Source: Desulfatibacillum sp. (lineage in GTDB: Bacteria; Desulfobacterota; Desulfobacteria; Desulfobacterales; SpSt-501). From it: a DNA stretch of 64,000 bases. Location: contig DYEU01000015.1 of the NCBI GenBank assembly GCA_020725555.1, positions 1-64,000 of the forward strand. The letters are read 5' to 3'. The notes below the pieces were generated by a model. That model made no database searches. It saw only the letters and a list, made by a program, of their open reading frames with translations, and was not told the origin of the DNA. Positions 15,444 to 29,955 of the stretch are shown piece after piece. A program made the position numbers and the translations under genes. How positions within the stretch are numbered: the stretch's first letter is position 1; the number at the start of each line of letters is the position of its first letter.

Positions 15444-17006
15444 TCAAGCGGGAGGTCCCGCAAGCCGGCGCGCCAGCGCCCGGGCGGTGGGGGTCCGCGA
15501 CAGACCCGCCCCGCCCGTGCAGCGGAGCTCCGGGGGCAGACGGCTTCCCACGTCGGCCATGGCGTCGATCGTCTCGTCGAGCGGGATGACGGGGTCGAAG
15601 CCCGCGAGCGCGAGGTTTGCGCAGGAGAGGGCGTTGGCCACGGCGAGCACGTTGCGGCCGAGGCAGGGGACTTCCACGCGGTTGGCGACCGGGTCGCAGA
15701 CGAGGCCGAGCACGTTCTGCAGCGCCATCGAGGCCGCGGCCGCGGCGGCAAGCACCCCGCCGCGGCGCAGGGTCACGAGCGCCGCGGCGGCCATGGCCGA
15801 GGCCGCCCCGCACTCGGCGAGGCAGCCGGCGAGCTCGGCCGCAAAGGTCGCGCGGGCGGCGATGAAGACCCCGACCAGGCCGGCCGCGAGCAGACCGGCC
15901 GCGGCTTCCTCCTCGCCCAGGCCCAGGGCCTCGGTGAACCCGAGCACGGCGCCGGGCACCGCCCCGCAGGAGCCGGCCGTGGGGAGGGCGACGATCGTCC
16001 CGAAGGCGCTCTTCACCTCCATCAACGCGGCGGCGTAGTGGATCATGCGGTTCAGGGCGCCGGCCTCGATCAGCCGGCCGGCCGCCAGGGCCTCGCCGAA
16101 CGCCGGGGCCTGGGCGGGGAGGAGCCGGCCGGGAAACGCGGTCCCGGCGATCCCCTGGGCGACGGAGCGGGCGAGGATGCCGGCGATCCGCCGCATGCGG
16201 CCGACCACCTCGTCCTCGGGGAGGCCGCCGCGGGCGCTCTCGTAGACCGCGGCGAGGCGCGCGAGATCGAGGCCGCGGTCCCGGTTCCAGGCGAGCATCT
16301 CGCGGCAGGAAAGAAAGGGGACCCGCACCCCCGGACGCGTGAGCACGGGAAGCACGGGGCGGATGCGGCGCACCCAGCGCACGCCGGGCCGGGCGGCGAC
16401 GTCGCGGAGGGTCTCCTCGGGGAGGGGGGCGGGGGTGCGGATTTCGACCAGGGCCGGCGGCGCCCCGCCGTGCGCGAGGATCTCGGCCCCGCCGGGGAGC
16501 CGCGGCGGGAGGTCGGCCGGGGAGAACCCCCCGCCCGCGCCGAGGAGGGTCACGTGACGGTCGCCGCGGAGCGACAGGGGGATCTCGTCGACGGCGATCA
16601 CCTCGACCATCCCGCCGCCGGTCGAGAGCGCCCTCATCGTGTGCGTCTCGCCCCCGCCCTCGAGGGCGATGCGGTAGGTGTTCGGGTGGGGGTCGCCGAA
16701 GCGGCCGATGCGGATCTCGACGGCGATGCCGGCTGCGGCGAGGGCGCCCGCCGCGTCGGCGAGGCGCGCGTCGTCTGTCTCCCAGCCGAGCAGCCCGCCG
16801 AAGAACCCCGCGTCCGAGCCCTGTTCGGCGTGGGTGCGGGCGAGAGAGCCCTCGGCGTCGAACTCCAGGCGCACCCGTTCGATGCGGCCCCCCATGAGGT
16901 CCCGCGCGATGAGCCCGATGCGCACCGCGGCCGCACAGTGGGAGCTCGACGGCCCGCGCATGACCGGGCCGATCACGTCGTTGAAGATGCTGGGGGGAAG
17001 CTCCAT
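15444..17006 (-). CDS. sdaA: L-serine ammonia-lyase (iron-sulfur type)
   Basis: The enzyme deaminates L-serine to pyruvate and ammonia using a [4Fe-4S] cluster. The 520-residue single chain has the beta domain first (PSSSHCAAAVRIGLIARDL at about residues 20-38, ending near 160) and the alpha domain after it. The cluster cysteines are in PTAGSCGAVPG, AECGAASAM and GLVCDPV. ATG 17006 was preferred over GTG 17015 because GGAG lies about 8 bases before it. It starts 31 bases after the hypD stop on the same strand, so it is the third gene of a hypE-hypD-sdaA operon. This is an unusual partner for hypD, which is usually linked to pyrroline-5-carboxylate reductase. Confidence 0.94.
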   Translation of the reverse strand: MELPPSIFNDVIGPVMRGPSSSHCAAAVRIGLIARDLMGGRIERVRLEFDAEGSLARTHAEQGSDAGFFGGLLGWETDDARLADAAGALAAAGIAVEIRIGRFGDPHPNTYRIALEGGGETHTMRALSTGGGMVEVIAVDEIPLSLRGDRHVTLLGAGGGFSPADLPPRLPGGAEILAHGGAPPALVEIRTPAPLPEETLRDVAARPGVRWVRRIRPVLPVLTRPGVRVPFLSCREMLAWNRDRGLDLARLAAVYESARGGLPEDEVVGRMRRIAGILARSVAQGIAGTAFPGRLLPAQAPAFGEALAAGRLIEAGALNRMIHYAAALMEVKSAFGTIVALPTAGSCGAVPGAVLGFTEALGLGEEEAAAGLLAAGLVGVFIAARATFAAELAGCLAECGAASAMAAAALVTLRRGGVLAAAAAASMALQNVLGLVCDPVANRVEVPCLGRNVLAVANALSCANLALAGFDPVIPLDETIDAMADVGSRLPPELRCTGGAGLSRTPTARALARRLAGPPA

Positions 17007-17037
17007 GGCGTCCACTCCGGGGATGAGCGGCCGGGCC

Positions 17038-19398
17038 TCAGCCCGCCGCGTGGGCCGTACGGCGCAGGATCTCCTCCTGGATGCCGGGGTCGAGGTCCAC
17101 GAAGAAATCGCTGTAGCCCGCCACGCGCACCAGGAGGTCGCGGTGCTCCTCGGGCCGCCGTTGCGCGCGGCGCAGGGTTTCGTCGTCCACGATGTTGAAC
17201 TGCACGTGGTGGCCGTTTAACCGGAAGTAGGTGCGGATGAGGCGGGCGAGCTTCGCGAGGTCGGCCTCGCCTTGAAGCACCTCGGGCAGAAAGCGCAGGT
17301 TGAGGAGCGTGCCGCCCGCGCGCGCCTGGTCGATCCGGGAGAGCGAGCGCAGGACCGCCGTCGGGCCGGAGCGGTCGGCGCCCTGGACGGGGGAGGCGCC
17401 GTCGGAGACCGGCTCGCCGGCGTGCCGGCCGTCGGCCGAGGCCGCGAGCATGCGGCCGAAGTAGACGTGGCAGGTGGTGGACAGGAGGTTGAGGTGCCAG
17501 CGGCCGCCGCGCGTGTTCGGCCGGCCGTCGATCGCCTGGAGGAGCGAGCCGTAGACGCGCTGCAGCAGGCGGTCGGCGCGTTCGTCGTCGTTGCCGTAGC
17601 GGGGGGTCCGGTTGCGCAGCCTGAGCCGCAGGGGCTCCTCGCCGGCGAAGTCGCCGGCGAGCGCCGCGACGAGGCGGGGCAGCGAGGTCGCGCCCTGCTC
17701 GAAGACGTGGGTGCGGACGGCGGAGAGCGAATCGACGGCGGTCCCGATGCCGACGCAGGCGATGAAGGAGGTGTTGTAGCGCGGCCCGCCGTCGGTGTAG
17801 TCGCGGCCGCGGGCGATGCAGTCGTGGATCAAAACGGAGAGAAACGGCGCGGGGCACATCCGGGCGACGATGCGCTCGATGCGGTGGCTCATCCGGACCT
17901 TGAGCTCGACCGCCCAGCGGAGCTGGGTTTCGAAGGCGGCGTAGAGCGCCTCGAAGCCGGAAAACGTCTCCGGCTTGCCGCTGCGCGGGCCGAGCGGTCG
18001 TCCCGTGCGCAGGTCGCAGCCGTCGTTCAGGGCGAGCTCGAGGATCTTGGGGACGTTGAGGTAGCCGGTGAGGAAATAGGCCTCCTTGCCGAAGGCCCCG
18101 GTTTCGATGCAGCCGCTGGTTCCGCCCTCGCGGGCGTCGGCGAGGGTTTTCCCCGCGGCGAGGAGCTCCTGGACCACGAGATCGGCGTTGAAGACGGAGG
18201 GGTAGCCGAACCCCTTGCGGATCACGCGGCAGGCCTCGAGGAGAACGGACTCCGGCGTGCGCGCGCTCACATGGAGGCTGGGCTGCGGCTGGAGCAGCCG
18301 CAGCTCCTCGGCCACCTCGAGGAGGAGGGTGGTGACCTCGGAGGCGCCGCTTTCGCCCTCCGGCGTGAGCCCGGCCAGGTTGATCTGGGTGAAATCGTTG
18401 TAGGTGCCGCTTTCGCTCGCCGTGACGCCGACCTTCGGCGGGGCGGGATGGTTGTTCACCTTGATCCAGAAACAGGACAGGAGCTCCTTGGCCTTCTCCC
18501 GCGTGAGGGTCCCCTCGCGCAGCCCCTGCTCGTAGAACGGCCGCAGGTGCTGGTCGAGGTGCCCCGGGCTCATGGCGTCCCAGCCGTTGAGCTCGGTGAT
18601 CACGGCGAGGTGGACGAACCAGTAGGCCTGGAGGGCTTCCCAGAAGTCCCGCGGGGCATGGGCGGGGACGCGGCGGCAGACCGCGGCGATGCGGCTGAGC
18701 TCGGCCTTCCGGGCGGGGTCGGGCTCGGCCGCGGCCGCCTCCGCGGCGAGCGCGGCATGCCGGCCGGCGTAGGCGATGACCGCCTCGCAGGCGATGTCCA
18801 TGGCGCGAAGCTGCTCGGCGCGCTCGAAGGCATGGGGGTCGGCGAGGTCATCGAGGGCGGCGAGCCGTGCGGCGATCTCCGCCCTCCGCTCGAGCAGGCC
18901 CCGGCGGTAGATCGTGCCGTCGAGCGCGGTGTGCCCCGGGGCCCGCTGTTCCATGAACTCGGTGAAGAGCCCGGCCTCGTAGGCCGCGCGCCACTCGGGG
19001 CTCGCCTCTTGGAAGATGCGTTCGCGGACCGTGCGGCCCTGCCAGAAGGGGATCACCTCGGCCTCGTAGCGCGCGATGTCCTCGGCCTCGATGCGGTAGG
19101 CGATGCGCGGCCGGGTGGCGAGCCGCCGCAAGTCCTCGGCACTGTGGCAGGTCCATTCGGGGAAGGTGGGAACGCTGCGGGGGGCCGGGCCGCGCTCGCC
19201 CACGATCAGCTCGTCCTGCCCGAGATGAATCGATTGCGCCGTCAGGAGGTCGCGCAGGATCAAGGCGCGCATCACGGGGACCGAGTGGCGGCCGAGATGG
19301 CGCTTGGCCGACGCGGTGACGAGCAGCGCGCGTTCGATCGAGAGGGTGACGGGGGTTTGCAGGCTGCGCTCGCGCAGCCGTTCGATGCGCGGGGTCAT
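17038..19398 (-). CDS. hypD: trans-4-hydroxy-L-proline dehydratase (glycyl radical enzyme)
   Basis: This anaerobic enzyme dehydrates trans-4-hydroxy-L-proline to (S)-1-pyrroline-5-carboxylate by radical chemistry. The 786-residue chain contains the glycyl radical loop RVAGYSD (Gly761) and the thiyl/base loop SGCIETGAFGKEAY (Cys430, Glu432). The substrate residues I recall for the characterised Clostridioides difficile enzyme are all found at a constant offset of -4: His156, Asp274, Ser330, Asp335, Phe336, Cys430, Glu432, Tyr446, Thr641 and Gly761. That pattern separates it from choline, glycerol, isethionate and benzylsuccinate members of the family. The ATG overlaps the hypE stop (ATGA). No pyrroline-5-carboxylate reductase (proC) is in the window, so the next step must be encoded elsewhere. 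Confidence 0.93.
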   Translation of the reverse strand: MTPRIERLRERSLQTPVTLSIERALLVTASAKRHLGRHSVPVMRALILRDLLTAQSIHLGQDELIVGERGPAPRSVPTFPEWTCHSAEDLRRLATRPRIAYRIEAEDIARYEAEVIPFWQGRTVRERIFQEASPEWRAAYEAGLFTEFMEQRAPGHTALDGTIYRRGLLERRAEIAARLAALDDLADPHAFERAEQLRAMDIACEAVIAYAGRHAALAAEAAAAEPDPARKAELSRIAAVCRRVPAHAPRDFWEALQAYWFVHLAVITELNGWDAMSPGHLDQHLRPFYEQGLREGTLTREKAKELLSCFWIKVNNHPAPPKVGVTASESGTYNDFTQINLAGLTPEGESGASEVTTLLLEVAEELRLLQPQPSLHVSARTPESVLLEACRVIRKGFGYPSVFNADLVVQELLAAGKTLADAREGGTSGCIETGAFGKEAYFLTGYLNVPKILELALNDGCDLRTGRPLGPRSGKPETFSGFEALYAAFETQLRWAVELKVRMSHRIERIVARMCPAPFLSVLIHDCIARGRDYTDGGPRYNTSFIACVGIGTAVDSLSAVRTHVFEQGATSLPRLVAALAGDFAGEEPLRLRLRNRTPRYGNDDERADRLLQRVYGSLLQAIDGRPNTRGGRWHLNLLSTTCHVYFGRMLAASADGRHAGEPVSDGASPVQGADRSGPTAVLRSLSRIDQARAGGTLLNLRFLPEVLQGEADLAKLARLIRTYFRLNGHHVQFNIVDDETLRRAQRRPEEHRDLLVRVAGYSDFFVDLDPGIQEEILRRTAHAAG

Positions 19399-20363
19399 GA
19401 GGCTTCTCCTTGGATGCGCACCGTGAGGCCGAACGAGGAGAGCAGGCGGGCGGCCTCCTCGAGGGCCTCCGCGGCGGGGGGGGAGGTCCCGGACAGCGGG
19501 GGCTCGAGCCCCAGCCGGCGGTACTTGCCGGCCGCGGCGCGGTGGTAGGGCAGCAGATCGACGGGCGGGCGTCGCGGCAGGCGGGCGAGGAAGGCGCCGG
19601 CCGCGGCGAGGTCCTCATGGCCGTCGTTGATGCCGGGAACGAGGGGCATGCGCACGACGAGCTCGGCACCGGCCGCGCTGAGCCGGGCGAGGTTTTCGAG
19701 GATGAGGCCGTTATCGACCCCGGTCGCGCGGCGGTGTTTGACCGGATCGATCCCCTTGAGGTCGTAGAGGAAAAGGTCGGTCCGGCGGGCCGCCGCGGCG
19801 AGCAGGCCGGGGTCGGCGTAGCCCGAGGTGTCGACGGCGCGGTGGATGCCCCGCCGGCCCAAGCCCTCCAGGGCCGCGAGCAGGAACGCGGGCTGGGCGA
19901 GGGGCTCGCCCCCGGAAAAGGTGACCCCGCCGCCGCTTTCTTCGTAAAAGGGAAGGTCCCTCTCGAGCGTCTCGAGAAGCGTCTCGAGCCGCACCGCGCG
20001 CTCGGTCCGCTCGAGGGCCTCGGCGGGGCAGGCGTCGGCGCAGCGGCCGCAGCGGCGGCAACGGGATGGGTCGAGGCGGATTTTCCCTGCGGCGGCGATG
20101 CAGGCCCCGGTCGGGCAGGAGGCGACGCAGGCCCCGCAGCCGACGCAGCGCCGCCCATCCCAGACGACCGCCGGCAGGTCCCGGCGGTGCTCCGGGTTGT
20201 GACACCAGAGGCAGGCGAGGGGGCAGCCCTTGAGAAAGACCGTCGTCCGGATCCCGGGGCCGTCATGGGTCGCAAAGCGCATGATGTGGAAGACCATCCC
20301 CTCCGCCGCGGAGGGGTCGCCTGCGGCACGGACCGTCGGGGGGGCGGGATCGAAGGCCGTCAT
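19395..20363 (-). CDS. hypE: Glycyl radical enzyme activating protein (radical SAM) for HypD
   Basis: The activase uses S-adenosylmethionine and a [4Fe-4S] cluster to create the glycyl radical on HypD. The 322-residue protein has the radical SAM triad CPLACLWC (Cys47, 51, 54) after the family motif RFATHDGPGIRTTVFLKG. It then has a two-cluster ferredoxin insert, CVGCGACVASCPTGAC and CRRCGRCADACP, found in most activases other than classical PflA. VTFSGGEPL follows. The ATG at 20363 and a GTG two codons earlier are both possible; neither has a good ribosome site. The gene is the first of the operon and is preceded by a long leader of about 300 bases. Confidence 0.93.
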   Translation of the reverse strand: MTAFDPAPPTVRAAGDPSAAEGMVFHIMRFATHDGPGIRTTVFLKGCPLACLWCHNPEHRRDLPAVVWDGRRCVGCGACVASCPTGACIAAAGKIRLDPSRCRRCGRCADACPAEALERTERAVRLETLLETLERDLPFYEESGGGVTFSGGEPLAQPAFLLAALEGLGRRGIHRAVDTSGYADPGLLAAAARRTDLFLYDLKGIDPVKHRRATGVDNGLILENLARLSAAGAELVVRMPLVPGINDGHEDLAAAGAFLARLPRRPPVDLLPYHRAAAGKYRRLGLEPPLSGTSPPAAEALEEAARLLSSFGLTVRIQGEAS

Positions 20364-20660
20364 GGGCACGGTGCGGCGGGCCAGGGAGCCGGGCCTTCCC
20401 CGGCGGCTTGCGTGTTGTCGGGGGACGCTGTCGGGCGGCCCGCGGGCCGCCCCGGTCGTTCAGGGCTCGACCCCGGGGTTTCGCGGCCGCCGGGCGCGAG
20501 CCGCAGCGAGGTTCTCACGCGACGCCTTCCTTTCCAAGCCGCGCGTGCGTTCTTGCCGCAGCCTCGAGGCCGGGGGGCCTTGCGGACGGTTGCGGCGGTT
20601 CCCGAAGCCCGGAACCCGGGGCTCTCCGGGTTCGAAAAAAACATCACCGCGCGCCACTCA
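20364..20660 (-). other. Long 5' leader of the hypE-hypD-sdaA transcript
   Basis: If transcription starts near 20675, the hypE message has an untranslated leader of about 300 bases. It holds no convincing gene: open frames here are Arg/Pro-rich and look like composition artefacts. It does contain a perfect 8-bp hairpin (GAACCCGG at 20612-20619, CCGGGTTC at 20626-20633). On the minus strand this hairpin is directly preceded by a run of seven T. I do not recognise a riboswitch fold. Confidence 0.4.
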
Positions 20661-20739: not shown

Positions 20740-20768
20740 TTGACGGCTCTCGGAGAAGAAACTAAACT
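20740..20768 (+). promoter_or_regulatory. Sigma-70 promoter of the GntR regulator gene
   Basis: TTGACG (20740-20745) is followed after 17 bases by TAAACT (20763-20768). Transcription should start near 20775, directly before the second operator copy. Confidence 0.72.
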
Positions 20769-20828: not shown

Positions 20829-21530
20829 ATGCACTTCGAGGCCATTCAGCGCAGCAGCGCCCCCGACAAGGTCGCCGAGCAGCTCCTGGCGCGCATCAAG
20901 TCCGGCGAGCTCGCCCCCGGCACGCGCCTTCCGCCGCAGCGCGAGCTCGCGCGGCAGTTCGGGGTGGGGCGATCTTCGGTGCGCGAGGCCCTGAATGCCC
21001 TCTCCGTCATGGGGTTCCTCGAGGTCTTCCAGGGCAAGGGGACCTTCGTCGCCCGGGAGATCCCGGGGGCCGACCCCCCGGCGGCCGCGTTGCGCGCGGC
21101 GTTCCAGGCGGAGAGCCTGCTCGACCTCCTCGAGCTGCGCGAGACCCTCGAGTGCCGTGCCGCCGAGCTCGCCGCCGAGAGGATCGAAAGCAGCCAGCTC
21201 GCGGGGCTCCGGCGCTGCCTCCAGGCCCTCGAGCACGCGGGCGACGATTACCCCTCCTTTCTCGCCGCCGATTTCGACTTTCACCGCCGGCTCTGTGAAG
21301 CCTCGGGAAACCGGGCCTTCGCCGAAATCTTGAACCCCCTTCTCGCCCGCGTGGCCGAGCAGCACGAGCGGCTGAAGACCGGACTCCTCTCCCGCGGCTA
21401 CCGCGAACACTCGATCCGCACCCTGAAGCAGTTGACCGCCTGCCTGGAGCGCGAGGACGGGCGCGGCGCCCGGGAATGGATGCGCGACCACCTCTACGCC
21501 ATCCGCAGCGAGCTCAAGGACGTCCTCTGA
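20829..21530 (+). CDS. GntR family regulator, FadR (FCD) subfamily
   Basis: The 233-residue protein has an N-terminal winged helix of the GntR type (GTRLPPQRELARQFGVGRSSVREALNAL split over residues about 30-58, then FLEVFQGKGTFVA). It is followed by an FCD ligand-binding domain (about 95-228) with the metal/ligand marks DFDFHRRLCEASGN and a late HL. ATG 20829 was preferred over an in-frame TTG at 20799, since the winged helix starts soon after it. It is divergent from hypE-hypD-sdaA, and both promoters carry the same 12-base element, so it very likely controls that operon and itself. The effector could be hydroxyproline or pyrroline-5-carboxylate (inference). Confidence 0.92.
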   Translation: MHFEAIQRSSAPDKVAEQLLARIKSGELAPGTRLPPQRELARQFGVGRSSVREALNALSVMGFLEVFQGKGTFVAREIPGADPPAAALRAAFQAESLLDLLELRETLECRAAELAAERIESSQLAGLRRCLQALEHAGDDYPSFLAADFDFHRRLCEASGNRAFAEILNPLLARVAEQHERLKTGLLSRGYREHSIRTLKQLTACLEREDGRGAREWMRDHLYAIRSELKDVL

Positions 21531-21559
21531 GCGACGCCTTCCCCGGCGCCGCCCTCTTT

Positions 21560-21577
21560 TTGTATCCTCGAATACAA
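21560..21577. repeat. Short inverted repeat TTGTAT-6-ATACAA
   Basis: A perfect 6-bp inverted repeat lies between the 3' ends of the GntR gene and the convergent ynjC gene. It is preceded by a T-rich run (CTCTTTTTG). It could be a weak terminator stem or a GntR-like site (GTAT-x-ATAC pattern); its position between two gene ends favours transcription termination. Confidence 0.3.
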
Positions 21578-21638
21578 CGAATCTCCCCTCCCCCCTGCGG
21601 CGGGCCCTATCGCGCCGGGCGGGGCGGCGCGCTCTTCG

Positions 21639-23348
21639 TCAAAAGCGGCGGCGCGCGCCGAGAGCCAGCGCCGCCGCAAAGACGGCGAGCGGCAAGGCCG
21701 CCTGCGCCAGGGCATAGATCCCGGTCACGCGCGGGTCGTTGCCGCTGGCGAGCGTCACCGCCTCCACGGTGAGGGTGGTCAGGCGGCCGGCGCCGGCGAA
21801 GAGGGTCGGCAGGTACTGGTTGGCGGAGACGGCGAAGCCCACGGCGAAGGCGAACAGGACCGCGCGCCGCATGAGCGGCAGCTCGACCCTGAGGAAGCTG
21901 CGTGCCCGCGAACCGCACAGGCTGAGGGCGACGGTGCGGTAGCGCAGGTCGAAGGCCCGCCAGGGGTCGGCAAGCGAAAGGAAGAGATAGGGGAAGACGA
22001 AGAGCAGGTGGCTGCCGACGAGCGCCGTCCAGGTGCCGTCGAGGCCCAGCCGGACGAGCAGGACCTGCAGCCCGGAGAGAAAGGCGATCTGCGGCACGAG
22101 AAGCGGCGTGTAGAGGAGCCACAGGGTGCGGGCGGCCGGGTTGCGGCCGTTCACGCGCTCGTTTTGCAGGCAGCCGATCACGAGGAAGAGCCCCACGGCG
22201 GCCGCGGCGAGCGCCGCGGCGAAGGTGACCCCGGCGGGCCGCAGGAGCTCGGGGGCATGCCGCATCCAATGGGCGAGCGTCCAGGCGGAGGGGAGCGCCT
22301 GCGGGAAGAACCAGGAGCGGGAGAGCGAGCCGAGGGCGAGCGCCAGCGCCCCCCCGAGCGAAAGCAGGACCGGAAGCCCCGCCACGGCGCCGAAGAAACC
22401 GGAGACGGCCGGACCCTCGGGCACCCGGGCCCCCCCGCGGCAGACGAGCCGGCGGCCGAGACCGCCGGCCGCGCACTCCCCGAGACGCCAGACGCCGATC
22501 GCGGCGACGGTGAGCGCAAGCTGCAGCAGGGCGCCCGCCGAGGCCGGGAAGAAAAGCCCGAGGTCGCGGTCGGTGAAGAGCCGGAAGAGGAGCACGCTGA
22601 AGGGCGGGGGCTCGGTCGGCGCGAGGATGACGGCGACGTCCACCACAGAGAGCGAGAAGGCGAGCACGGCGTAGACCGGGAGCCGGATCTGGCGGTAGAG
22701 CTGGGGGATGAGGACATGCAGCCAGGCTGCGGCGCGGCCGTGTCCGAGGGTGCGGCAGACGGCGAGCTGTTCGCGGACGCGGATCTGCTCGAGCGCCGCC
22801 ACGGCCATGAAGAGGAGGTAGGGGATTTCCTTGAGCGTCAACCCCAGGACGAGGCAGAGCCCGAAGGGGTCGTGAACGATGGCGATGTCCGGCGGGCGCT
22901 GCCAGCCGGTGAGGCCCGGGGAGAGGAGCCGGCTCACCCAGCCGGAGGGGGCGATGAGGAAGGCCAGGCCGATCGCGGCCGCGGCGTGCGGCAGGGCGAG
23001 CAGCGGGGCGAGCATTCGGCTGAGCCAGCGGAAGAGGCGGCTGCCGTGGAGCGTGGCGCACAGGCCGAGCACCGCGGCGAGCGAGACCGCCGCGGCGAGA
23101 AACCCCGTGCGCAGGGTGAGCCCGAGCGAGGCCCCCAGGCCGGGAACGGCGAACAAGCGGCGCCAGGGGTCCAGGCCGGGGGCCGTTCCCCCCAGGGCGG
23201 GCAGGTAGCCGAAGGCGGCCAGCGCCGTGGAGGCGAGCCCGGCGAGCACCGGGGCGAGGAAGAGCAGCAGGGCCGCCGCCGGGAAGAGGGCCAGCAGCGG
23301 CGAGCCTGAGCCGCGCTTGCCCGTCAGCGGGAGTACCGCCGTTCCCAT
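21639..23348 (-). CDS. ynjC: ABC transporter permease, fused double unit (YnjC/ThiP-like)
   Basis: The 569-residue membrane protein contains two permease units in one chain, as in YnjC and ThiP. Each has about six hydrophobic helices and an EAA-type loop; the second reads CGSRARSFLRVELPLM near residue 480 and the first CRTLGHGRAAAWLHVLIPQL near 205. The start ATG at 23348 lies within the end of ynjB (25-base overlap). A long upstream frame is only the antisense-free shadow of ynjB. It is the last gene of the SDR-radical SAM-ynjD-ynjB-ynjC operon. The substrate of YnjBCD transporters is not established. Confidence 0.9.
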   Translation of the reverse strand: MGTAVLPLTGKRGSGSPLLALFPAAALLLFLAPVLAGLASTALAAFGYLPALGGTAPGLDPWRRLFAVPGLGASLGLTLRTGFLAAAVSLAAVLGLCATLHGSRLFRWLSRMLAPLLALPHAAAAIGLAFLIAPSGWVSRLLSPGLTGWQRPPDIAIVHDPFGLCLVLGLTLKEIPYLLFMAVAALEQIRVREQLAVCRTLGHGRAAAWLHVLIPQLYRQIRLPVYAVLAFSLSVVDVAVILAPTEPPPFSVLLFRLFTDRDLGLFFPASAGALLQLALTVAAIGVWRLGECAAGGLGRRLVCRGGARVPEGPAVSGFFGAVAGLPVLLSLGGALALALGSLSRSWFFPQALPSAWTLAHWMRHAPELLRPAGVTFAAALAAAAVGLFLVIGCLQNERVNGRNPAARTLWLLYTPLLVPQIAFLSGLQVLLVRLGLDGTWTALVGSHLLFVFPYLFLSLADPWRAFDLRYRTVALSLCGSRARSFLRVELPLMRRAVLFAFAVGFAVSANQYLPTLFAGAGRLTTLTVEAVTLASGNDPRVTGIYALAQAALPLAVFAAALALGARRRF

Positions 23349-24535
23349 TCGGCCACGATCCGGTTCATCCAGGAGGGGTGCGGCTCCGGCAGGGCCCGGC
23401 CGAGCTCTTCCGGGGAGAGGGTCGCCACCCCCCGCGGCAGCGCGGCGAAACGCCGCCGGTCCTCGGGGGCGAGCCGGTCGAGGTCGAGGACCGTGGGGTT
23501 CCCCATCCCCTCGGGGTGCATCGCCCGGGCCTGGGACTCGGGGGTGAGCAGAAAGTCGGCGACGACCAGCGCCCCTTCCTTGTGGCGCGCGTTGTAGGGG
23601 ATGGCGACGAAGCTCGTGTTGCCGATCGTCCCCCGCTCCAGCACGAAGGTGCGCACGGTCGGCGGGAGGATGCCGCGGGCGATGCCGGCGGTCGCCTCGT
23701 TGGGGTTGAAGGAGATCATGATGTCGATTTCCCCGTCGGCGAGCAGCGCGCGCATGGCCGGCCCCGATTCGGGGAACTGCTCGCCGCGGCGCCACAGCAG
23801 CGGCTTGAGCTCCTCGTACCAGCGCCACAGCGGGGCGGAGCGGGCGAGGAATTCCTCCTCGCCCACGGGCCGGACCAGCCGGCCCGGGTCGTCGATCAGC
23901 TCGTAGAGCGCTTGCTTGAGAAAGGTCGAGCCGAGAAAGTTGCGGATGCGCGGGTGGGTGATGCGGCCGGGGTTCGCCCGCGCCCAGTCGAGCATCGCCG
24001 GGATGGATCGCGGCGGGCGCGGAAGGCGCGCCGCGTCGTAGACGTAGACGATCCGGGCCATGCGCCAGGGGGATTCGTACCCCTCGGTCGGCACGGTGAA
24101 GTCGATCACCGTCGAGGGCTTGCCCGCGGTGTCGACGAGGCCGAAGTGCGGCAGCCGGTGCGTGAAGGGGCCGAAGAGGAGGCCCTGCTCCTTCATGGCG
24201 AGAAAGTTCTCGCCGTTGATCCAGATCAGATCGATCGAGCCGCCCTCGTGGCGGCCGGCCGCCTTCTCGGCGACCACCCGCGAGACGGCCTCGGCGGTGA
24301 GGGAGAGCTTGACGTGGACGAGATTCACGCCCGCGGTTTCCTTCACGCGGCGGCCGACCCAGGCGATGAAGGCGTTGGTCGGCTCGTCGCCCGCCCAGGC
24401 GTTCCAGTAGACGTCCTGCCCGCGCGCCCGCTCGAGGATCCCCTCCCAGGTGGGGGGGAGGCCCTGGGCTTCGGCGAGGCGGAGGGCGGCGAAGACCGCC
24501 GCCGTGACGGTCAGGGAACGGAGTGCGGCGATCAT
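23324..24535 (-). CDS. ynjB: ABC transporter substrate-binding protein, YnjB-like
   Basis: The 403-residue protein has a signal peptide (residues 1 to about 23, SLTVTAAVFAALRLAEAQG) and then the YnjB hallmark GQDVYWNAWAGDEPTNAFI near residue 40. It also has WINGENFLAMKEQGLLFGPF and a closing NRIVAEWERRY. YnjB-like proteins form their own branch of type-II periplasmic binding proteins related to thiamine and iron binders. No cysteine lipobox is present, so it should be free in the periplasm. It overlaps ynjD by 4 bases and ynjC by 25 bases. Confidence 0.92.
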   Translation of the reverse strand: MIAALRSLTVTAAVFAALRLAEAQGLPPTWEGILERARGQDVYWNAWAGDEPTNAFIAWVGRRVKETAGVNLVHVKLSLTAEAVSRVVAEKAAGRHEGGSIDLIWINGENFLAMKEQGLLFGPFTHRLPHFGLVDTAGKPSTVIDFTVPTEGYESPWRMARIVYVYDAARLPRPPRSIPAMLDWARANPGRITHPRIRNFLGSTFLKQALYELIDDPGRLVRPVGEEEFLARSAPLWRWYEELKPLLWRRGEQFPESGPAMRALLADGEIDIMISFNPNEATAGIARGILPPTVRTFVLERGTIGNTSFVAIPYNARHKEGALVVADFLLTPESQARAMHPEGMGNPTVLDLDRLAPEDRRRFAALPRGVATLSPEELGRALPEPHPSWMNRIVAEWERRYSR

Positions 24536-25263
24536 GGAGCATCCTCCCGGTTGCGTGCGGCGGGTGCGCCCGGGTCTTCTCTCCCGTCCCGGAGGCCCGG
24601 CCCGAGCTGCAGCAGCGGGCCACCCGCGGCGCGGGCGTCCTCGGGGTCGTGGGTGACGAGGAGTGTCGGCAGCCCCTCGGCCCGCACGTGGTCGAAGACG
24701 AATTGCCGGATGGCGGCCTTGAGCGGGGCGTCGAGCCGGGAAAAGGGCTCGTCGAGCAGGACGGCGCGGGGCCGCGAGAGCAGCGTGCGCATCAGGGCGA
24801 CCCGGGCCCGCTGGCCGCCGGAAAGGGTCGCCGGGTCGCGGTCCTCCATGCCGGGGAGGCCCGCCTCGGCGAGCGCCCGGCGCACAAGCTCCCGCCTGGC
24901 CCGGCGGCCGGGGATTTCCCGCGGGATCGCAAAGAGGAGGTTTTCGCCGACCGTGAGGTGCGGGAAGAGCAGGTCGTCCTGGAAGAGGATGCCGATCCGG
25001 CGGCGCTCGACGGGGAGCCGGCTCACCTCGCGGCCGTCGACCCAGATCTCGCCCTGCGCCGCGAAGGCGGCATCCAGCGTGCCGCACAGGTAGGAGAGCA
25101 GGCTCGACTTGCCCGCCCCGCTCGGGCCCATGACGGTGGCGACCTCGCCGGGGGCGACCGCGAGGGTCAGCCCGGCGACCAGCTCCGTCCCGTTCAGGGC
25201 GATCCGCACCCCGCAAAGCGCGAGTCCCGCCCGCCCGGGGCGCTTGGGTGCCGGGGCGTTCAT
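24532..25263 (-). CDS. ynjD: ABC transporter ATP-binding protein, YnjD-like
   Basis: The 243-residue ATPase has Walker A GPSGAGKSS (about residue 47), Q-loop ILFQDDLLFPHLTVGENL, signature TLSGGQRARVALMRTL, Walker B AVLLDEPFSRLD and the switch histidine LLVTHD. DDLLFPHLTVGENL is typical of YnjD and thiamine/iron importers. The ATG at 25263 is inside the last codons of the radical SAM gene (4-base overlap), and its stop overlaps the ynjB start. The tight coupling with a radical SAM enzyme and an SDR is not usual for ynj operons. Confidence 0.93.
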   Translation of the reverse strand: MNAPAPKRPGRAGLALCGVRIALNGTELVAGLTLAVAPGEVATVMGPSGAGKSSLLSYLCGTLDAAFAAQGEIWVDGREVSRLPVERRRIGILFQDDLLFPHLTVGENLLFAIPREIPGRRARRELVRRALAEAGLPGMEDRDPATLSGGQRARVALMRTLLSRPRAVLLDEPFSRLDAPLKAAIRQFVFDHVRAEGLPTLLVTHDPEDARAAGGPLLQLGPGLRDGREDPGAPAARNREDAP

Positions 25264-26306
25264 CGGCTCCCCCCCCGGCGGCGGGCCTCGCGGAGCCGGG
25301 CGAGAAGGGGCGCCAGGTGCTCCTCGTGGATGCGGTCGCAGCCGATGCAGCGGTTGTGGTAGGGGCGGCCCGCGGGGTCGACGGTCCGGGAGAGCTCGAG
25401 GAAGCGGTCCGGGTCGACCCCGAAGGAGAGCCCCATGCGCTCGGGGACCCCGGCGGTGATCGCCTCGAAGGGGGGGACCCCCACCAGGCTTTCCAGGATC
25501 GCGGCGAGCGGCTCCTCGGCGAGGTTGCCGTAGGGGAGCCGGGTCTTGCGGCAGCAGGGGTAGAGGTTGCCCTCGGGGTCGACGGCCGCCTCGGAGCCGC
25601 TTCGCCCCAGGTTGAGGAAATGCATGCCCCCGGACCAGCCGGCGCAGAAATTGTCCGCCCAGCACGCGGTCGAGAGCCCGTTGCGCCAGGCGCGGCCGCT
25701 CGGCCAGAGCTTGCCGATCCATGCCTCCGGGGTCGCCCCGAAGAAGCTGTAGCGGGGGCCCTCCTCGTCCACCCAGCGGCGCCGCTCGGCCGAGAGGGCC
25801 GAGGGCCGGACCCCGGCCCGGGCGAAGGCCGCGCTGAGCCGCTCGCGGAGCCCCGCGGCACGGCCCGCGCCGCCGTGGAAGTCGTCGATCGAGGAGACCG
25901 AGATCATCCAGACCCCGCGCTGGAGAAGCTCCGCGATGACGGCCTCGGTGAGGAGATCGCCCGCCGTCTGGACGACGAGCCGCACCCCCGCGCCGTAGCG
26001 CTCCCGCAGAAGATCGAGCAGCGGGTAGAGCAGGCGGCTGCGCGTCGGCTCCAGCAGCACCTCCCCCCCCGAGAGGACGATGCGGCCGGGCCGCGTGCGA
26101 AACCCGCCGCGGCCGTCTTCTTCCTCGAGGTCGCGGTAGGCGAACGTCCCGGGCAGATGCGGCACCACCCGCCGGGCGACCTCCCAGGCCGCGGCCGTGA
26201 GCCGCTCCCGCTCCCCGGCCGGGTAAGGCCGGAAACGCTCGTCGTAGCAGTGGGGGCAGGCACGGGTGCAGACCCAGGTGATCGACCAGTAGAGCGACTC
26301 GAGCAT
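25260..26306 (-). CDS. Radical SAM protein with SPASM-like C-terminal cysteines
   Basis: The 348-residue enzyme has the radical SAM triad CTRACPHC at Cys13, Cys17 and Cys20, and the SAM-binding GGE segment IVLSGGEVLLEP near residue 80. Its C-terminal third holds an auxiliary-cluster pattern CWADNFC, GNLYPCCRKTRLPYGNLAEE and NRCIGC, resembling a SPASM domain. SPASM enzymes modify peptides or proteins, but no precursor peptide gene is adjacent, and the neighbours (SDR upstream with a 3-base gap, ABC importer downstream with a 4-base overlap) suggest a small-molecule substrate. I do not recognise a characterised subfamily. Confidence 0.85.
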   Translation of the reverse strand: MLESLYWSITWVCTRACPHCYDERFRPYPAGERERLTAAAWEVARRVVPHLPGTFAYRDLEEEDGRGGFRTRPGRIVLSGGEVLLEPTRSRLLYPLLDLLRERYGAGVRLVVQTAGDLLTEAVIAELLQRGVWMISVSSIDDFHGGAGRAAGLRERLSAAFARAGVRPSALSAERRRWVDEEGPRYSFFGATPEAWIGKLWPSGRAWRNGLSTACWADNFCAGWSGGMHFLNLGRSGSEAAVDPEGNLYPCCRKTRLPYGNLAEEPLAAILESLVGVPPFEAITAGVPERMGLSFGVDPDRFLELSRTVDPAGRPYHNRCIGCDRIHEEHLAPLLARLREARRRGGSR

Positions 26307-26309
26307 CGG

Positions 26310-27080
26310 TTACGGGATCCCTCCCATGGCGGCGGTCAGGCCGCCGTCGACGATGAGCGTCTGGCCGGTGATGAACGCCGCCGCGGGCGAGGCGAGAAAG
26401 AGCGCCGCCCGGGCGATGTCCTGCGGCTCGGCCCAGCGCGCCAGCGGGGTGCGCGCCCTCACGGCCGCCTCGAGGCCGGGGTCGCTCCACTGGGAGCGCG
26501 TGAGGTCGGTGCGCGTGAAGCCCGGGGCGACGGCGTTCACGCGGATCCCCTGCGGGGCCCATTCCACGGCGAGCGCCCGGGTGAGCTGGCGCAGCCCCGC
26601 CTTGGTCATGGCGTAAGCGGCAACCCCCGGCCGGGCGATTTCGCCCAGGATCGAGGAGATGTTGACGATCGCGCCGGGCTTCCCCGCGGCGATCCGCTCC
26701 CGGGCGAAGGCGGCGGAGAGGAAAAAGGCGGAGGTGAGGTTGAGGTCGAGCAGGCGGCGGAAGTCCTCCGCCGCGAGCTCCGCGGCCGCCCCGCGGAGGA
26801 TGCCGCCGGCGTTGTTGACGAGGATGTCGATCCCGCCGGTTTCGGCGGTGAGCCGCTGGAAGACGCCGGGGGCCTCCTCCGGCTGGGTGAGGTCCAGGGC
26901 CGCGGTCCACACCCGGCCGGCGGCGAAGCGGCCGGCCGCCTCCTCGAGCCGCCGGCGGTCCCGGGCGAGAAGCACGATCGCGGCCCCGGCGGCGGCGAAG
27001 ACCTCGGCGATCGCCAGCCCGATGCCGCGGCTTGCCCCCGTGACGAGGGCGGTTTGGCCATCGAGGCGGAAGTCGTCCAT
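26310..27080 (-). CDS. Short-chain dehydrogenase/reductase (SDR)
   Basis: The 256-residue protein is a classical SDR that uses NAD(P)H to interconvert an alcohol and a ketone. It has the cofactor motif TGASRGIGLAIAEVF (residues about 14-28), NNAGG near 90, the catalytic serine region SSILGEIARPG, YAMTK as the YxxxK pair, and NAVAPGFTRTDL after it. It most resembles 3-oxoacyl-reductase or gluconate-dehydrogenase type SDRs; substrate not readable. The ATG follows GGAGGG by 5 bases. It is the first gene of the five-gene operon running to ynjC, with a promoter about 85 bases upstream. Confidence 0.92.
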   Translation of the reverse strand: MDDFRLDGQTALVTGASRGIGLAIAEVFAAAGAAIVLLARDRRRLEEAAGRFAAGRVWTAALDLTQPEEAPGVFQRLTAETGGIDILVNNAGGILRGAAAELAAEDFRRLLDLNLTSAFFLSAAFARERIAAGKPGAIVNISSILGEIARPGVAAYAMTKAGLRQLTRALAVEWAPQGIRVNAVAPGFTRTDLTRSQWSDPGLEAAVRARTPLARWAEPQDIARAALFLASPAAAFITGQTLIVDGGLTAAMGGIP

Positions 27081-27160
27081 GGCATCCCTCCGGGGAGCGG
27101 CGCCCGGAGCTCGGGGCGCGCCGGGCGCGGCCTGCGAGGCGGGGCTCTCCCGGGGGTTTC

Positions 27161-27188
27161 AGTAAACCACTTTCCCCCTCTTGTGCAA
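27161..27188 (-). promoter_or_regulatory. Promoter of the SDR-radical SAM-ynjDBC operon
   Basis: On the minus strand TTGCAC (27183-27188) is followed after 16 bases by TTTACT (27161-27166), in the only AT-leaning part of the intergenic region. It drives the five-gene operon. Confidence 0.55.
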
Positions 27189-27204
27189 GGCGGGGCCAAG
27201 GATC

Positions 27205-27233
27205 TTGCATCCGGCGCGGCGATTGCCTATGTC
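27205..27233 (+). promoter_or_regulatory. Promoter of the hydroxypyruvate reductase gene
   Basis: TTGCAT (27205-27210) is followed after 17 bases by TATGTC (27228-27233). It is back to back with the SDR promoter, so the two units may share control. Confidence 0.5.
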
Positions 27234-27291
27234 TCGGCCCCAAGCGACCCATCGACCCCTTTGCCGCGAACCGAACGAGGGAGGACCCCCC

Positions 27292-28488
27292 ATGGCCGGC
27301 CGCGAATGGATCACCCACCACCCCCAGGGCGAGCGGCGCGTCGTCGTCACCCAGGAGCTTCCCGGAGCGCGCTGGCTGGCGATCCTCCGCGCGGCCGGCT
27401 GCCGCGTCGACGTCTGCCGCGCCGATCTCCCCCTCACGGCGGCGGAGATCCGCGCGGCGATCGGCGGCCGCTGCGACGGCGCGATCGGCCAGGTGGCCGA
27501 GACCTGGGGCGAGGAGGAGTTTTCCGCCCTGCGGGCGGCCGGGGGGCGCGCCTACAGCAACTATGCCGTGGGCTACAACAACGTGGATCTCGCCGCGGCC
27601 ACCCGCTGCGGGGTCGCCGTCGGCAATACCCCGGGCGTGCTCACCGAGACGACGGCCGAGCTCGCCGCGGCGCTGGCGCTGGCCGCCGCGCGGCGGCTCC
27701 CCGAGGCCGAGCGCTTTCTCCGGGCGGGGAAGTTCCGCGCCTGGCTGCCCACGCTGCTTTTGGGGACGCTCTTGCGCGGCAAGACGGCGGGGATCGTCGG
27801 CGCCGGCCGGATCGGGGTCGCCGCGGCGCGCATCTTCGTGGAAGGCTTCCGCATGAACCTGCTCTACTTCGACCCGCAGCCCCAGCCGGCGCTCGAGGCG
27901 CGCGTGCGCGCCTTCGCCGCGTTTCTGCGGGCCCAGGGCGAGCCCGACGTCTTCTGCCGCCGTGCCGCACGCCTCGAGGAGCTGCTCGCCGCCGCCGATC
28001 TCGTGAGCCTGCACACGCCCCTCACGGCCGAGACCCGCCACTTGATCGACGCCCGGCGGCTGGCGGCGATGAAGCCCGATGCGATCCTCGTGAACACAAG
28101 CCGCGGTCCCGTGATCGACGAGGAAGCCCTGGCCGCCCACCTGCGGCGGCACCCCGGCTTCCGGGCCGGGCTCGACGTCTACGAGCGCGAGCCCGAGGTG
28201 GCCGCCGGCCTGCTCGAGCTCGAAAACGTGGTGCTCTTGCCGCATATCGGGTCGGCGACCCCCGAGGCGCGCGAGGGCATGGCCGTGCTCGCCGCCGCCA
28301 ACGTCGCCGGCAGGCTCCTCGGCCACCCCGCCTGGAACCGGCCCGAGATCGGGGCCTTTCTCGGCGACTCCCCCCCGGCGGCCTCCCCCAGCATCCTGAA
28401 CGCGCGGGAGCTGGGCATCCCCCTCTTCGGGGGAGGCGGCGGCGGGGCGGCGGATTCCGGCTTGCATCCGGCGGCGGATCGGGAATAA
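27292..28488 (+). CDS. Hydroxypyruvate reductase of the plant peroxisomal (HPR1) type
   Basis: The enzyme reduces hydroxypyruvate (and probably glyoxylate) to D-glycerate (glycolate) with NAD(P)H. The 398-residue product is closer to plant peroxisomal HPR1 than to usual bacterial glycerate dehydrogenases. Shared segments I can recall include CDGAIGQVAETWGEEEFSAL, AVGYNNVDLAAAT, VGNTPGVLTETTAELAA and the insertion FLRAQGEPDVFCRRA. The Rossmann motif VGAGRIGVAAARI is near residue 165. The catalytic Arg (NTSRGPVIDE), Glu (DVYEREPE) and His (LPHIGSATPE) are present. It lacks a peroxisomal tail, as expected. ATG 27292 has GGGAGGA 7 bases upstream; a longer frame upstream is unsupported. Confidence 0.92.
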   Translation: MAGREWITHHPQGERRVVVTQELPGARWLAILRAAGCRVDVCRADLPLTAAEIRAAIGGRCDGAIGQVAETWGEEEFSALRAAGGRAYSNYAVGYNNVDLAAATRCGVAVGNTPGVLTETTAELAAALALAAARRLPEAERFLRAGKFRAWLPTLLLGTLLRGKTAGIVGAGRIGVAAARIFVEGFRMNLLYFDPQPQPALEARVRAFAAFLRAQGEPDVFCRRAARLEELLAAADLVSLHTPLTAETRHLIDARRLAAMKPDAILVNTSRGPVIDEEALAAHLRRHPGFRAGLDVYEREPEVAAGLLELENVVLLPHIGSATPEAREGMAVLAAANVAGRLLGHPAWNRPEIGAFLGDSPPAASPSILNARELGIPLFGGGGGGAADSGLHPAADRE

Positions 28489-28605: not shown

Positions 28606-29955
28606 ATGTCCGACATCATGGCGTACGTCAAAGCCCGTGACCCGCACGAGAGGGAGTTCCACCAGGCGGTGCAGGAGGTCATGGACTCGATCCAGCCCGT
28701 CCTGGACCGCAACCCCGTCTACCGCCGCGCGCGGATCCCGGAGCGCCTGGTCGAGCCCGAACGCGTGATCCTCTTCCGCGTCCCCTGGGTCGACGACCAG
28801 GGGGTCATCCAGGTGAACCGCGGCTTTCGCGTCCAGATGAACAGCGCGATCGGCCCCTACAAGGGCGGCCTGCGGTTTCACCCCTCCGTGAACCTCGGCA
28901 TCCTCAAGTTCCTCGCCTTCGAGCAGGTCTTCAAGAACGCCCTCACCACCCTGCCGATGGGCGGCGGCAAAGGGGGCTCGGATTTCGACCCCAAGGGCAA
29001 GTCCGACGGCGAGGTCATGCGCTTCTGCCACAGCTTCATGTGCGAGCTCTTCCGCCACATCGGCCCGGACACCGACGTCCCCGCCGGCGACATCGGGGTG
29101 GGGGCGCGGGAGATCGGCTTTCTCTTCGGCATGTACAAGAAGCTCAAAAACGAGTTCAGCGGCGTGCTCACCGGCAAGGGGCTGAACTGGGGCGGGAGCC
29201 TCATCCGGCCCGAGGCGACGGGCTACGGGGTCGTCTACTTCGCGGCCGAGATGCTCGCCACCCGCAACCAGACGCTCGAGGGCAAACGCTGCCTCGTTTC
29301 CGGCTCCGGCAACGTCGCCCAGTTCACCGTGCAGAAACTCCTGGACATGGGCGCCAAGCCCCTCACGCTCTCGGACTCCAACGGCTCCATCTACGACGAG
29401 GAGGGGATCACCCGTGAAAAACTCGCCTGGGTGATGGAGCTGAAAAACGTCCGGCGCGGCCGGATCCGCGAGTACGCCGAGAAATTTCCGCGCGCGGTCT
29501 ACACCCCCGCCGACCCGGCGCTCGACCACAACCCGCTCTGGGACCACCCCGCCGACTGTGCCTTTCCCTGCGCCACGCAAAACGAGATCAACGGCAAAGA
29601 CGCCCAGAACCTCATCCGGAACGGCGTCTTCCTCGTCGCCGAGGGCGCCAACATGCCGACCACCCCGGAGGGGGTCGACCTCTTCATCGAGCACAAGCTG
29701 CTCTACGGGCCGGGCAAGGCGGCCAACGCGGGCGGCGTGTCCGTCTCCGGGCTGGAGATGACCCAGAACAGCATGCGCCTCTCCTGGACACGCGAGGAGG
29801 TGGACCGCAGGCTGCAGATGATCATGAAGAGCATCCACCGCTCCTGCGTGGAGGCGGCGGAGCGCTACGGGATGAAGGGCAATTACGTGGCCGGGGCGAA
29901 CATCTCCGGCTTCCTCAAGGTGGTGGACGCCATGATGGACCAGGGCGTGGTGTAG
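28606..29955 (+). CDS. gdhA: NADP-type glutamate dehydrogenase
   Basis: The enzyme interconverts 2-oxoglutarate plus ammonia and glutamate. The 449-residue product is the hexameric 450-residue type, which is mostly NADP-specific and assimilatory. It has the glutamate-site motif GPYKGGLRFHPSVN (about residue 85), the catalytic lysine region LPMGGGKGGSDFDPKGKSD (about 120-140), and the dinucleotide fold VSGSGNVAQF (about 235). GGAAAGGAGAG lies about 6 bases upstream of ATG. A GC hairpin follows the stop. It would recycle nitrogen released by the serine and proline-type degradation encoded nearby. Confidence 0.97.
   Translation: MSDIMAYVKARDPHEREFHQAVQEVMDSIQPVLDRNPVYRRARIPERLVEPERVILFRVPWVDDQGVIQVNRGFRVQMNSAIGPYKGGLRFHPSVNLGILKFLAFEQVFKNALTTLPMGGGKGGSDFDPKGKSDGEVMRFCHSFMCELFRHIGPDTDVPAGDIGVGAREIGFLFGMYKKLKNEFSGVLTGKGLNWGGSLIRPEATGYGVVYFAAEMLATRNQTLEGKRCLVSGSGNVAQFTVQKLLDMGAKPLTLSDSNGSIYDEEGITREKLAWVMELKNVRRGRIREYAEKFPRAVYTPADPALDHNPLWDHPADCAFPCATQNEINGKDAQNLIRNGVFLVAEGANMPTTPEGVDLFIEHKLLYGPGKAANAGGVSVSGLEMTQNSMRLSWTREEVDRRLQMIMKSIHRSCVEAAERYGMKGNYVAGANISGFLKVVDAMMDQGVV

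Follow-up and report, generated by a model that had tools for sequence, protein, structure and literature searches.

YnjBCD importers have no established cargo, and the question raised by a locus of Desulfatibacillum sp. that encodes one is which enzymes work with it and on what kind of compound. The locus is a five-gene operon on the minus strand of a 64,000-nucleotide stretch of DNA (positions 1 to 64,000 of contig DYEU01000015.1, assembly GCA_020725555.1; hereafter, the window), in which ynjD, ynjB, and ynjC follow genes for a short-chain dehydrogenase/reductase (SDR) and a radical S-adenosylmethionine (SAM) protein. We found that the radical SAM gene is a recurrent, unnamed partner of this importer, located beside ynjB in 7 of the 22 genomes in which it was detected. 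A family of enzymes that travels with the importer offers a handle on its purpose. The features of the locus are as follows:

26310..27080, minus strand: SDR oxidoreductase, 256 residues; first gene of the operon, with GGAGGG preceding its ATG
25260..26306, minus strand: radical SAM/SPASM protein of an unnamed subfamily, 348 residues; C13-x3-C17-x2-C20, GGE at 80-82, and five further conserved cysteines
24532..25263, minus strand: YnjD, ATPase of the ATP-binding cassette (ABC) importer, 243 residues; GPSGAGKSS, LSGGQ, and LLDEP read by eye
23324..24535, minus strand: YnjB, substrate-binding protein, 403 residues; NF008633, with an N-terminal hydrophobic stretch that looks signal-like by eye
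21639..23348, minus strand: YnjC, fused double permease, 569 residues; a reading frame with weak family matches
27081..27180, no strand: divergent gap of 100 bases, presumably with the promoter, that separates the operon from a 2-hydroxyacid dehydrogenase gene

The five genes (frames 27080-21639) are spaced by +3, -4, -4, and -25 bases in the order SDR, radical SAM, ynjD, ynjB, ynjC, exactly as a preliminary description of this DNA had claimed, and four of them are preceded by a GGAG-type ribosome-binding stretch (ynjC has none). The identity of YnjB is certain (NF008633, 486.5 bits against a cut-off of 203), and YnjD is an ABC ATPase (PF00005, 112.3 bits against 25). For YnjC, Pfam gives nothing at an E value of ≤0.1, and the NCBIfam matches, to binding-protein-dependent permeases, are weak; with this permease and the ATPase encoded alongside YnjB, the window holds a YnjBCD importer gene set. 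As in the importer of the Escherichia coli ydjXYZ-ynjABCD cluster (NF008633/PRK11622), a binding protein far over the cut-off, a fused permease, and a short ATPase are found in one operon. The SDR is of the classical type; it matches PF13561 (226.4 bits against 27) and, among the 25 NCBIfam families shown out of 234 matched, passes only the broad subfamily NF005559 (235.2 bits against 215). The gene order of the operon is repeated in a second genome of the genus (G002; genomes, loci, and contigs are given by our own G, L, and C numbers), so the arrangement is not due to chance. A scan for sigma-70-like promoters found no match in the 27081-27180 gap, its sole site being at 20740, and Rfam gave 0 matches at the gathering score across 15000-36000.

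To establish how far this association extends, neighborhoods were read, as far as the contigs reach, for the 22 genomes and for G516, which holds remnants of the radical SAM gene. Genes in unannotated loci were called with a simple composition-based script, so that start positions and some of the calls could be in error, and the purA-, serA-, selB-, cysS-, TauE-, PHP-, and aconitase-like genes mentioned below, as well as the kinase of G005, were recognized by eye. The seven loci with ynjB beside the radical SAM gene are those of the window, G002, G539, G604, G690, G538, and G609 (the last through a 35-residue ynjB match at a contig edge), which supports the coupling of enzyme and importer proposed in the preliminary description. 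In all of them, the radical SAM gene is upstream of ynjB on the same strand. It is directly followed by ynjD in the window (with an overlap of 4 bases) and in G002, and by ynjB itself in G539, G604, and G609. The stretch of G690 reads TIGR04283, TIGR04282, radical SAM, APH kinase, YnjB, a TauE-like gene, and YnjC, while in G538 the radical SAM gene and ynjB are separated by a TIGR04282/TIGR04283 pair encoded on the opposite strand. If positions are crudely treated as independent and the genome size is set to 4 Mb, the chance of placement within 10 kb would be 0.005 per genome.

What kind of enzyme this partner is can be addressed first from its sequence. C13, C17, and C20, as well as G80, G81, and E82, are present in 22/22 rows of a 22-row alignment, which places the family in the radical SAM superfamily. 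The extra cluster cysteines that had been pointed out before turned out to be five, kept in every row that has the position (C221 in 22/22, C251 and C252 each in 20/20, and C320 and C323 each in 21/21), for a total of eight conserved cysteines; in the Syntrophobacteraceae protein (G480), a five-residue gap removes the CC pair (C251/C252). The SPASM domain PF13186 passes narrowly in the window protein (22.6 bits against 21.5) and is matched by 20/22 family members at an E value of ≤0.01, as expected for the SPASM/twitch group. PF04055 is matched by 21/22 at the same threshold, with the window protein at 24.3 bits, below the cut-off of 29.5. As judged by these profiles, the family is left unnamed by the curated libraries searched: the window protein comes near the cut-off of no NCBIfam model and, as the proposal in the preliminary description requires, belongs to none of its named families (best, viperin, 22.6 bits against 180), and the strongest NCBIfam E value among the matches listed for the 22 members is 1.3e-6, to the peptide maturase DynA. 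A sequence search of solved structures with the family found no credible relative (one match, calmodulin-like, E value of 0.39), and PHROGs gave nothing for the window radical SAM protein or YnjB. Viperin or another defense role was discarded, as the PADLOC match to pVip (23.3 bits) and the NCBIfam match to viperin both span only the radical SAM core.

SPASM-type cysteines could also indicate a maturase of proteins or of ribosomally synthesized and posttranslationally modified peptides (RiPPs) whose precursor was missed. The family shares with the SPASM peptide maturases DynA, YhhB, and StsB the CxxxCxxC motif and the C-terminal cluster cysteines, with weak matches (E value of ≤0.01) to DynA in 17/22 members and to YhhB in 14/22. 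However, the window protein lies far below the cut-offs of these maturases (20.9 bits to DynA against 450), the gene that follows is ynjD or ynjB in 5/7 linked loci, and no precursor gene was found in the window, in agreement with the earlier impression that this is not a RiPP locus. There is no room for one inside the operon, and all the frames of at least 20 residues that touch its flanking gaps in the window overlap neighboring genes and are not conserved as peptides (more distant short frames in the other loci were not sought). Those on the operon strand include one of 73 residues at 21494-21715, which gave nothing better than an E value of 0.98 against 23 related loci, and one of 92 residues at 27159-27437, which matched only G002 (E value of 3.6e-9), antisense to the homologous 2-hydroxyacid dehydrogenase gene. 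We consider a maturase very improbable.

A different direction is suggested by the predicted structure. The AlphaFold model of the radical SAM protein, built from a five-row alignment, has a mean predicted local distance difference test score (pLDDT) of 57 and is good only in part of the barrel. The top solved structure in a Foldseek search with this model is the cyclitol dehydrogenase BtrN (E value of 2.3e-4, template modeling [TM] score to the query of 0.30 to 0.34), followed by the peptide maturase ChlB, viperin, and AprD4, with E values of 1e-3 to 8e-3 (for AprD4, 8.1e-3 and a TM score to the query of 0.22). This ranking may be taken as a lead toward small-molecule radical enzymes, and no more. 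The SDR partner of AprD4 is AprD3. Two of our genomes likewise encode an SDR next to the radical SAM enzyme, which resembles the AprD4/AprD3 and BtrN systems, and the weak fold match may point the same way. Unlike in those systems, no aminoglycoside genes were seen, and the likeness in fold comes from a search with a poor model.

The genes found around the radical SAM gene and around ynjBCD overlap, with an APH-type kinase, TIGR04282, TIGR04283, and TVP38 as recurrent company. TIGR04283 and TIGR04282 are above the cut-off beside the radical SAM gene in G690 and G538, and TIGR04282 alone is beside it in G771 (above the cut-off) and G779 (below). The APH-type kinase is its neighbor in G690, and within 5 kb of it we found TVP38 in G916 and G480 and DUF547 in G480 and G690. 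A mercuric-reductase-like flavoenzyme, grouped by BLAST, is encoded upstream of both G914 copies of the radical SAM gene and of those in G913 and G916; the protein of G916, the only one of the group tested, reaches 731.7 bits to NF004991 (cut-off, 620). Among the ynjBCD loci, that of Pseudoalteromonas, without the radical SAM gene, has a TVP38/flavoenzyme fusion, DUF547, and a CDP-alcohol phosphatidyltransferase. The last enzyme is also encoded next to or near ynjBCD in two Rhodobacterales records (Aliiroseovarius and Rhodobacteraceae SC52) and in a Klebsiella record, in which two TVP38 genes, an AhpD-like gene, and a sulfurtransferase are found as well and which, in contrast to the window, has no radical SAM or SDR gene. 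The two CDP-alcohol phosphatidyltransferases tested reach 68.8 and 61.4 bits (cut-off, 180) to inositol-phosphate head-group synthases, a weak similarity. The ynj locus of G008 has an APH kinase with TVP38, and that of G004 has YnjB, two permeases, an ATPase, an APH kinase, and a TIGR04282-TIGR04283 protein; the locus of G005 resembles it. None of these families was recognized beside ynjB in a Peptoclostridium record, G779, G913, G914, or G497.

Several further arrangements of these genes were observed. In the genus of the window (L098, L099, L133, L124, and L123), a TIGR04282-TIGR04283 gene and then a PHP-domain-like gene are found downstream of an aconitase-like gene, and in G004 a split-permease ynj operon with the APH kinase lies between the aconitase-like and TIGR04282-TIGR04283 genes (G005 looks alike). 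In G690, a second radical SAM gene (L048, 13462-14877) near the linked locus is weakly Tes-like (58 bits against 450) and TrsS-like (44.4 bits against 490).

TIGR04282 and TIGR04283 are named arsenosugar biosynthesis glycosyltransferases by NCBIfam, and in the literature radical SAM enzymes are described to form carbon-arsenic bonds in the arsenosugar and arsinothricin routes (PMC12159101). The present enzyme might perform ArsS-like chemistry, in which a metalloid or another small molecule, imported by YnjBCD as the acceptor, receives an adenosyl or ribosyl group and both transferases finish an arsenosugar-like product. The company described above, with both families in G690 and G538 and TIGR04282 in G771 and G779, points in this direction, and plasmid ArsS loci share part of it (DUF547 and TIGR04283 at some, TIGR04282 at others). 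A stretch of Burkholderia glumae has both transferases, a methylthioadenosine (MTA) phosphorylase, and TVP38/flavoenzyme without ArsS, and ArsS itself (TIGR04167, cut-off of 300 bits) is above the cut-off in 0/23 genomes with the radical SAM gene or its remnants. However, the present protein is not ArsS: it has no ArsS match at an E value of ≤0.001, and its likeness is limited to the CxxxCxxC stretch (hhalign probability of 2, E value of 0.023, 14 columns, against an ArsS profile of two rows only). Several of these genomes also have ArsS-like radical SAM matches of 56 to 70 bits, so the absence of an ArsS relative from them is not established. Altogether, we regard ArsS-like chemistry as rather unlikely. 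A TIGR04167 protein and arsenite methyltransferase fusions have been noted to occur as selenoproteins (PMC13188914), and in contig 20 of G482 (6350-7468), TIGR04282 and ArsS-like radical SAM matches fall in one 718-residue frame, a possible transferase-radical SAM fusion.

Other neighbors would fit a system for sulfur, selenium, or another redox-active oxyanion, in which the importer works with rhodanese, flavin disulfide reductase, DoxX/MauE, and TVP38 proteins and the radical SAM protein is a maturase or reductase. In G002 (L065, 10909-12491), MauE, rhodanese, and C_GCAxxG_C_C genes come directly after ynjC, followed by selB-like and cysS-like genes; the Klebsiella record combines its TVP38 pair, AhpD-like gene, and sulfurtransferase with ynjBCD; and the mercuric-reductase-like protein precedes the radical SAM gene in G914, G913, and G916. 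In addition, a list of the FNR regulon of E. coli includes ydjXYZ-ynjABCD, as predicted proteins and a predicted transporter (PMC3688515). On the other hand, the solved structure nearest to YnjB by sequence is the polyamine-binding PotD (E value of 7e-4), genes for glycosyl and lipid transfer are also neighbors, and, apart from the SDR, such redox genes are missing from the window operon. An oxyanion system thus appears distinctly unlikely.

We tentatively prefer another explanation, possible if still doubtful, in which the cargo of YnjBCD is a polar compound, polyol- or sugar-like, that the radical SAM enzyme and the dehydrogenase remodel and that a kinase and transferases place on a lipid or glycan. 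AprD4 is described as a radical SAM diol dehydratase with the NADPH-dependent reductase AprD3 as its partner (PMC5461906). The remodeling of a hydroxylated compound would suit a radical SAM enzyme paired with a dehydrogenase; the AprD4/AprD3 pair works in such a way. After uptake of the compound, probably a polyol, cyclitol, or sugar, the radical SAM enzyme would abstract a hydrogen from it and oxidize or dehydrate it, and the carbonyl so formed would, in the window operon, be reduced by the SDR, in analogy to AprD4/AprD3. The pathway at large would continue with phosphorylation of the compound by the APH-type kinase; the TIGR04282 protein, which has a CofC-like name, would activate it with a nucleotide, and TIGR04283 or the CDP-alcohol phosphatidyltransferase would transfer it to a glycan or a membrane lipid. 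The combination of importer, kinase, nucleotidyltransferase-like protein, glycosyltransferase, and phosphatidyltransferase suggests this order of import, phosphorylation, activation, and transfer. The genome of the window (G000) might use for this purpose its own TIGR04282-TIGR04283 gene, which is unlinked to the operon, in contig 28 (C28), among what look by eye like sugar-phosphate genes. A polyol or cyclitol is favored by the weak likeness to inositol-phosphate head-group synthases and by the BtrN fold lead, and the similarity of YnjB to PotD keeps an amino group in the cargo possible. We infer the class of substrate, the reaction, the order of the steps, and the use of the contig 28 gene. 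That YnjBCD generally belongs to one unrecognized pathway of polyol-like uptake, phosphorylation, nucleotide activation, and attachment to lipid or glycan, where the radical SAM enzyme remodels the compound in the place that belongs to ArsS in arsenosugar loci, seems unlikely.

Little of what we found in the literature bears on the cargo. A review tabulates YnjB of E. coli as a polyamine-binding protein (PMC9397018), and overexpression of BaeR is reported to raise ynjA and ynjB slightly, as part of a putative transporter (PMC2731931). Among the papers listed, titles and abstracts, with most of the papers behind them unopened, gave nothing about the present radical SAM family or the cargo of YnjBCD, and the passages cited here do not deal with this family. 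An AlphaFold model of YnjB from two rows reached a pLDDT of 37 and was not used. If the association is functional, the small operons without other pathway genes would provide a direct route from the ligand of YnjB to the partner enzyme and would give an identity to a radical SAM family left unassigned in the libraries searched.

Several of our results weigh against the proposed pathway. In 15/22 genomes, ynjB is not beside the radical SAM gene (the contigs of G480, G481, and G482 end too early to show the whole neighborhood), and 12/22 have no ynjB anywhere at an E value of ≤1e-40, including G609 with its edge fragment; the lack of ynjB at this threshold in 13/23 genomes with the gene or its remnants speaks against a strict need for it. 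At the level of whole genomes, the counts favor an association, with ynjB (at 1e-40) found in 10/23 with the gene or remnants against 4/42 without (in one of these four, G005, as a fragment below the cut-off), but the 42 controls were hand-picked from nonmatching lists and not matched by phylogeny, so the Fisher p value of 0.003 is only a guide. The SDR is beside the radical SAM gene in just two of the seven linked loci, the window and G002 (58.8% identity), and the other five have no SDR match. Thus, of the co-occurrence expected from the preliminary description, the association of ynjB with the radical SAM gene stood, whereas the SDR proved not to be part of a wider conserved unit; import followed by remodeling, also proposed there, stays an inference, and the 15 unlinked genomes count against the coupling too. 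ynjD was not found in the 20-kb stretch of G690. The kinase and the TIGR04282 and TIGR04283 genes are outside the operon, and no single locus read holds the importer, kinase, nucleotidyltransferase-like protein, glycosyltransferase, and phosphatidyltransferase together. TIGR04282 is present in 21/23 genomes that have the gene or its remnants, against 25/42 of those that do not (p value of 0.009), and, being common in these clades anyway, says little by its presence and more by its adjacency. Finally, the Foldseek lead comes from a low-confidence model with low TM scores, and its ranking puts viperin and a peptide maturase after BtrN but ahead of AprD4.

The unlinked genomes would also be explained if the radical SAM gene had an independent cellular role and ynjBCD were only a frequent neighbor. 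In G603 and G707, the gene is located among purA- and serA-like genes, and the radical SAM tree scatters the ynj-linked loci, so that at least three changes of linkage are needed, a pattern compatible with an ancient linkage that was lost in places and also with joining on several occasions. However, the seven linkages are found across the tree, in the genus of the window and in the class of a Sphingomonas metagenome-assembled genome (MAG; G482), always on the same strand and with the radical SAM gene before ynjB, and we find an independent role rather improbable. A tree built from 22 YnjB rows places the proteins of the window and G002 together with those of Rhizobium sullae and G604 (support, 100/99); all four have the fused permease, and G604 is also radical SAM linked. 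YnjB of G004, of the same genus, and that of G008 fall elsewhere, in a group (100/100) whose members, as far as read, encode the permease in two genes, so the window operon is not the version carried by G004. By this tree, the ynj operon of the window was probably acquired jointly with the radical SAM gene.

The radical SAM gene is sparse and patchy in the genomes searched. It was found in 22 genomes, complete, cut by a contig end, or split between two frames (G771, L062), and as a remnant copy in one more (G516, L063); the split copy and the remnants suggest gene loss in some lineages. In a set of 96 genomes (that of the window and 95 relatives), only the genome of the window and G002, one of six from the same genus, have it (64% identity), and in 395 genomes of the phylum the 22-row profile at 1e-20 matched only the window's own; weak matches (E values of 1e-5 to 8e-4) in 8 others of the phylum were not confirmed with this profile. 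A collection of species genomes was scanned with two short peptide patterns, and profile searches were then run around the relatives found. The scan gave four: the G002 contig (a groundwater Deltaproteobacteria MAG), the Syntrophobacteraceae MAG G480, G481 (a MAG titled Actinomycetota with an Acidobacteria scaffold name), and the Sphingomonas MAG G482. In the class of G482, 14/289 genomes gave matches, namely G482, a further 12, and G516, which has only remnants; the corresponding numbers were 6/162 for the class of G481 (G481 included) and 1/39 for the order of G480 (G480 itself). G914 holds two copies. Carriage by viruses or plasmids was discarded: 25 stretches in viral contigs fit the peptide patterns, none of them a relative, and 72,556 plasmid records gave no match at an E value of ≤1e-5.

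Regarding the surroundings of the operon, the 2-hydroxyacid dehydrogenase gene (27181-28488, plus strand) is divergent from it, and its homolog in G002 is likewise upstream of the SDR, so in this genus the unit may include this gene. A glutamate dehydrogenase-like gene, recognized by eye (28606-29955, plus strand), lies 1.5 kb from the operon start; gdhA is also near ynjBCD in the Klebsiella record, probably by coincidence. On the other side, there is a glycyl radical enzyme with its activase gene (17038-20369, minus strand), near trans-4-hydroxy-L-proline dehydratase (1055.5 bits, just below the cut-off of 1100), and a serine-dehydratase-like gene (15444-17015) adjoins this region.

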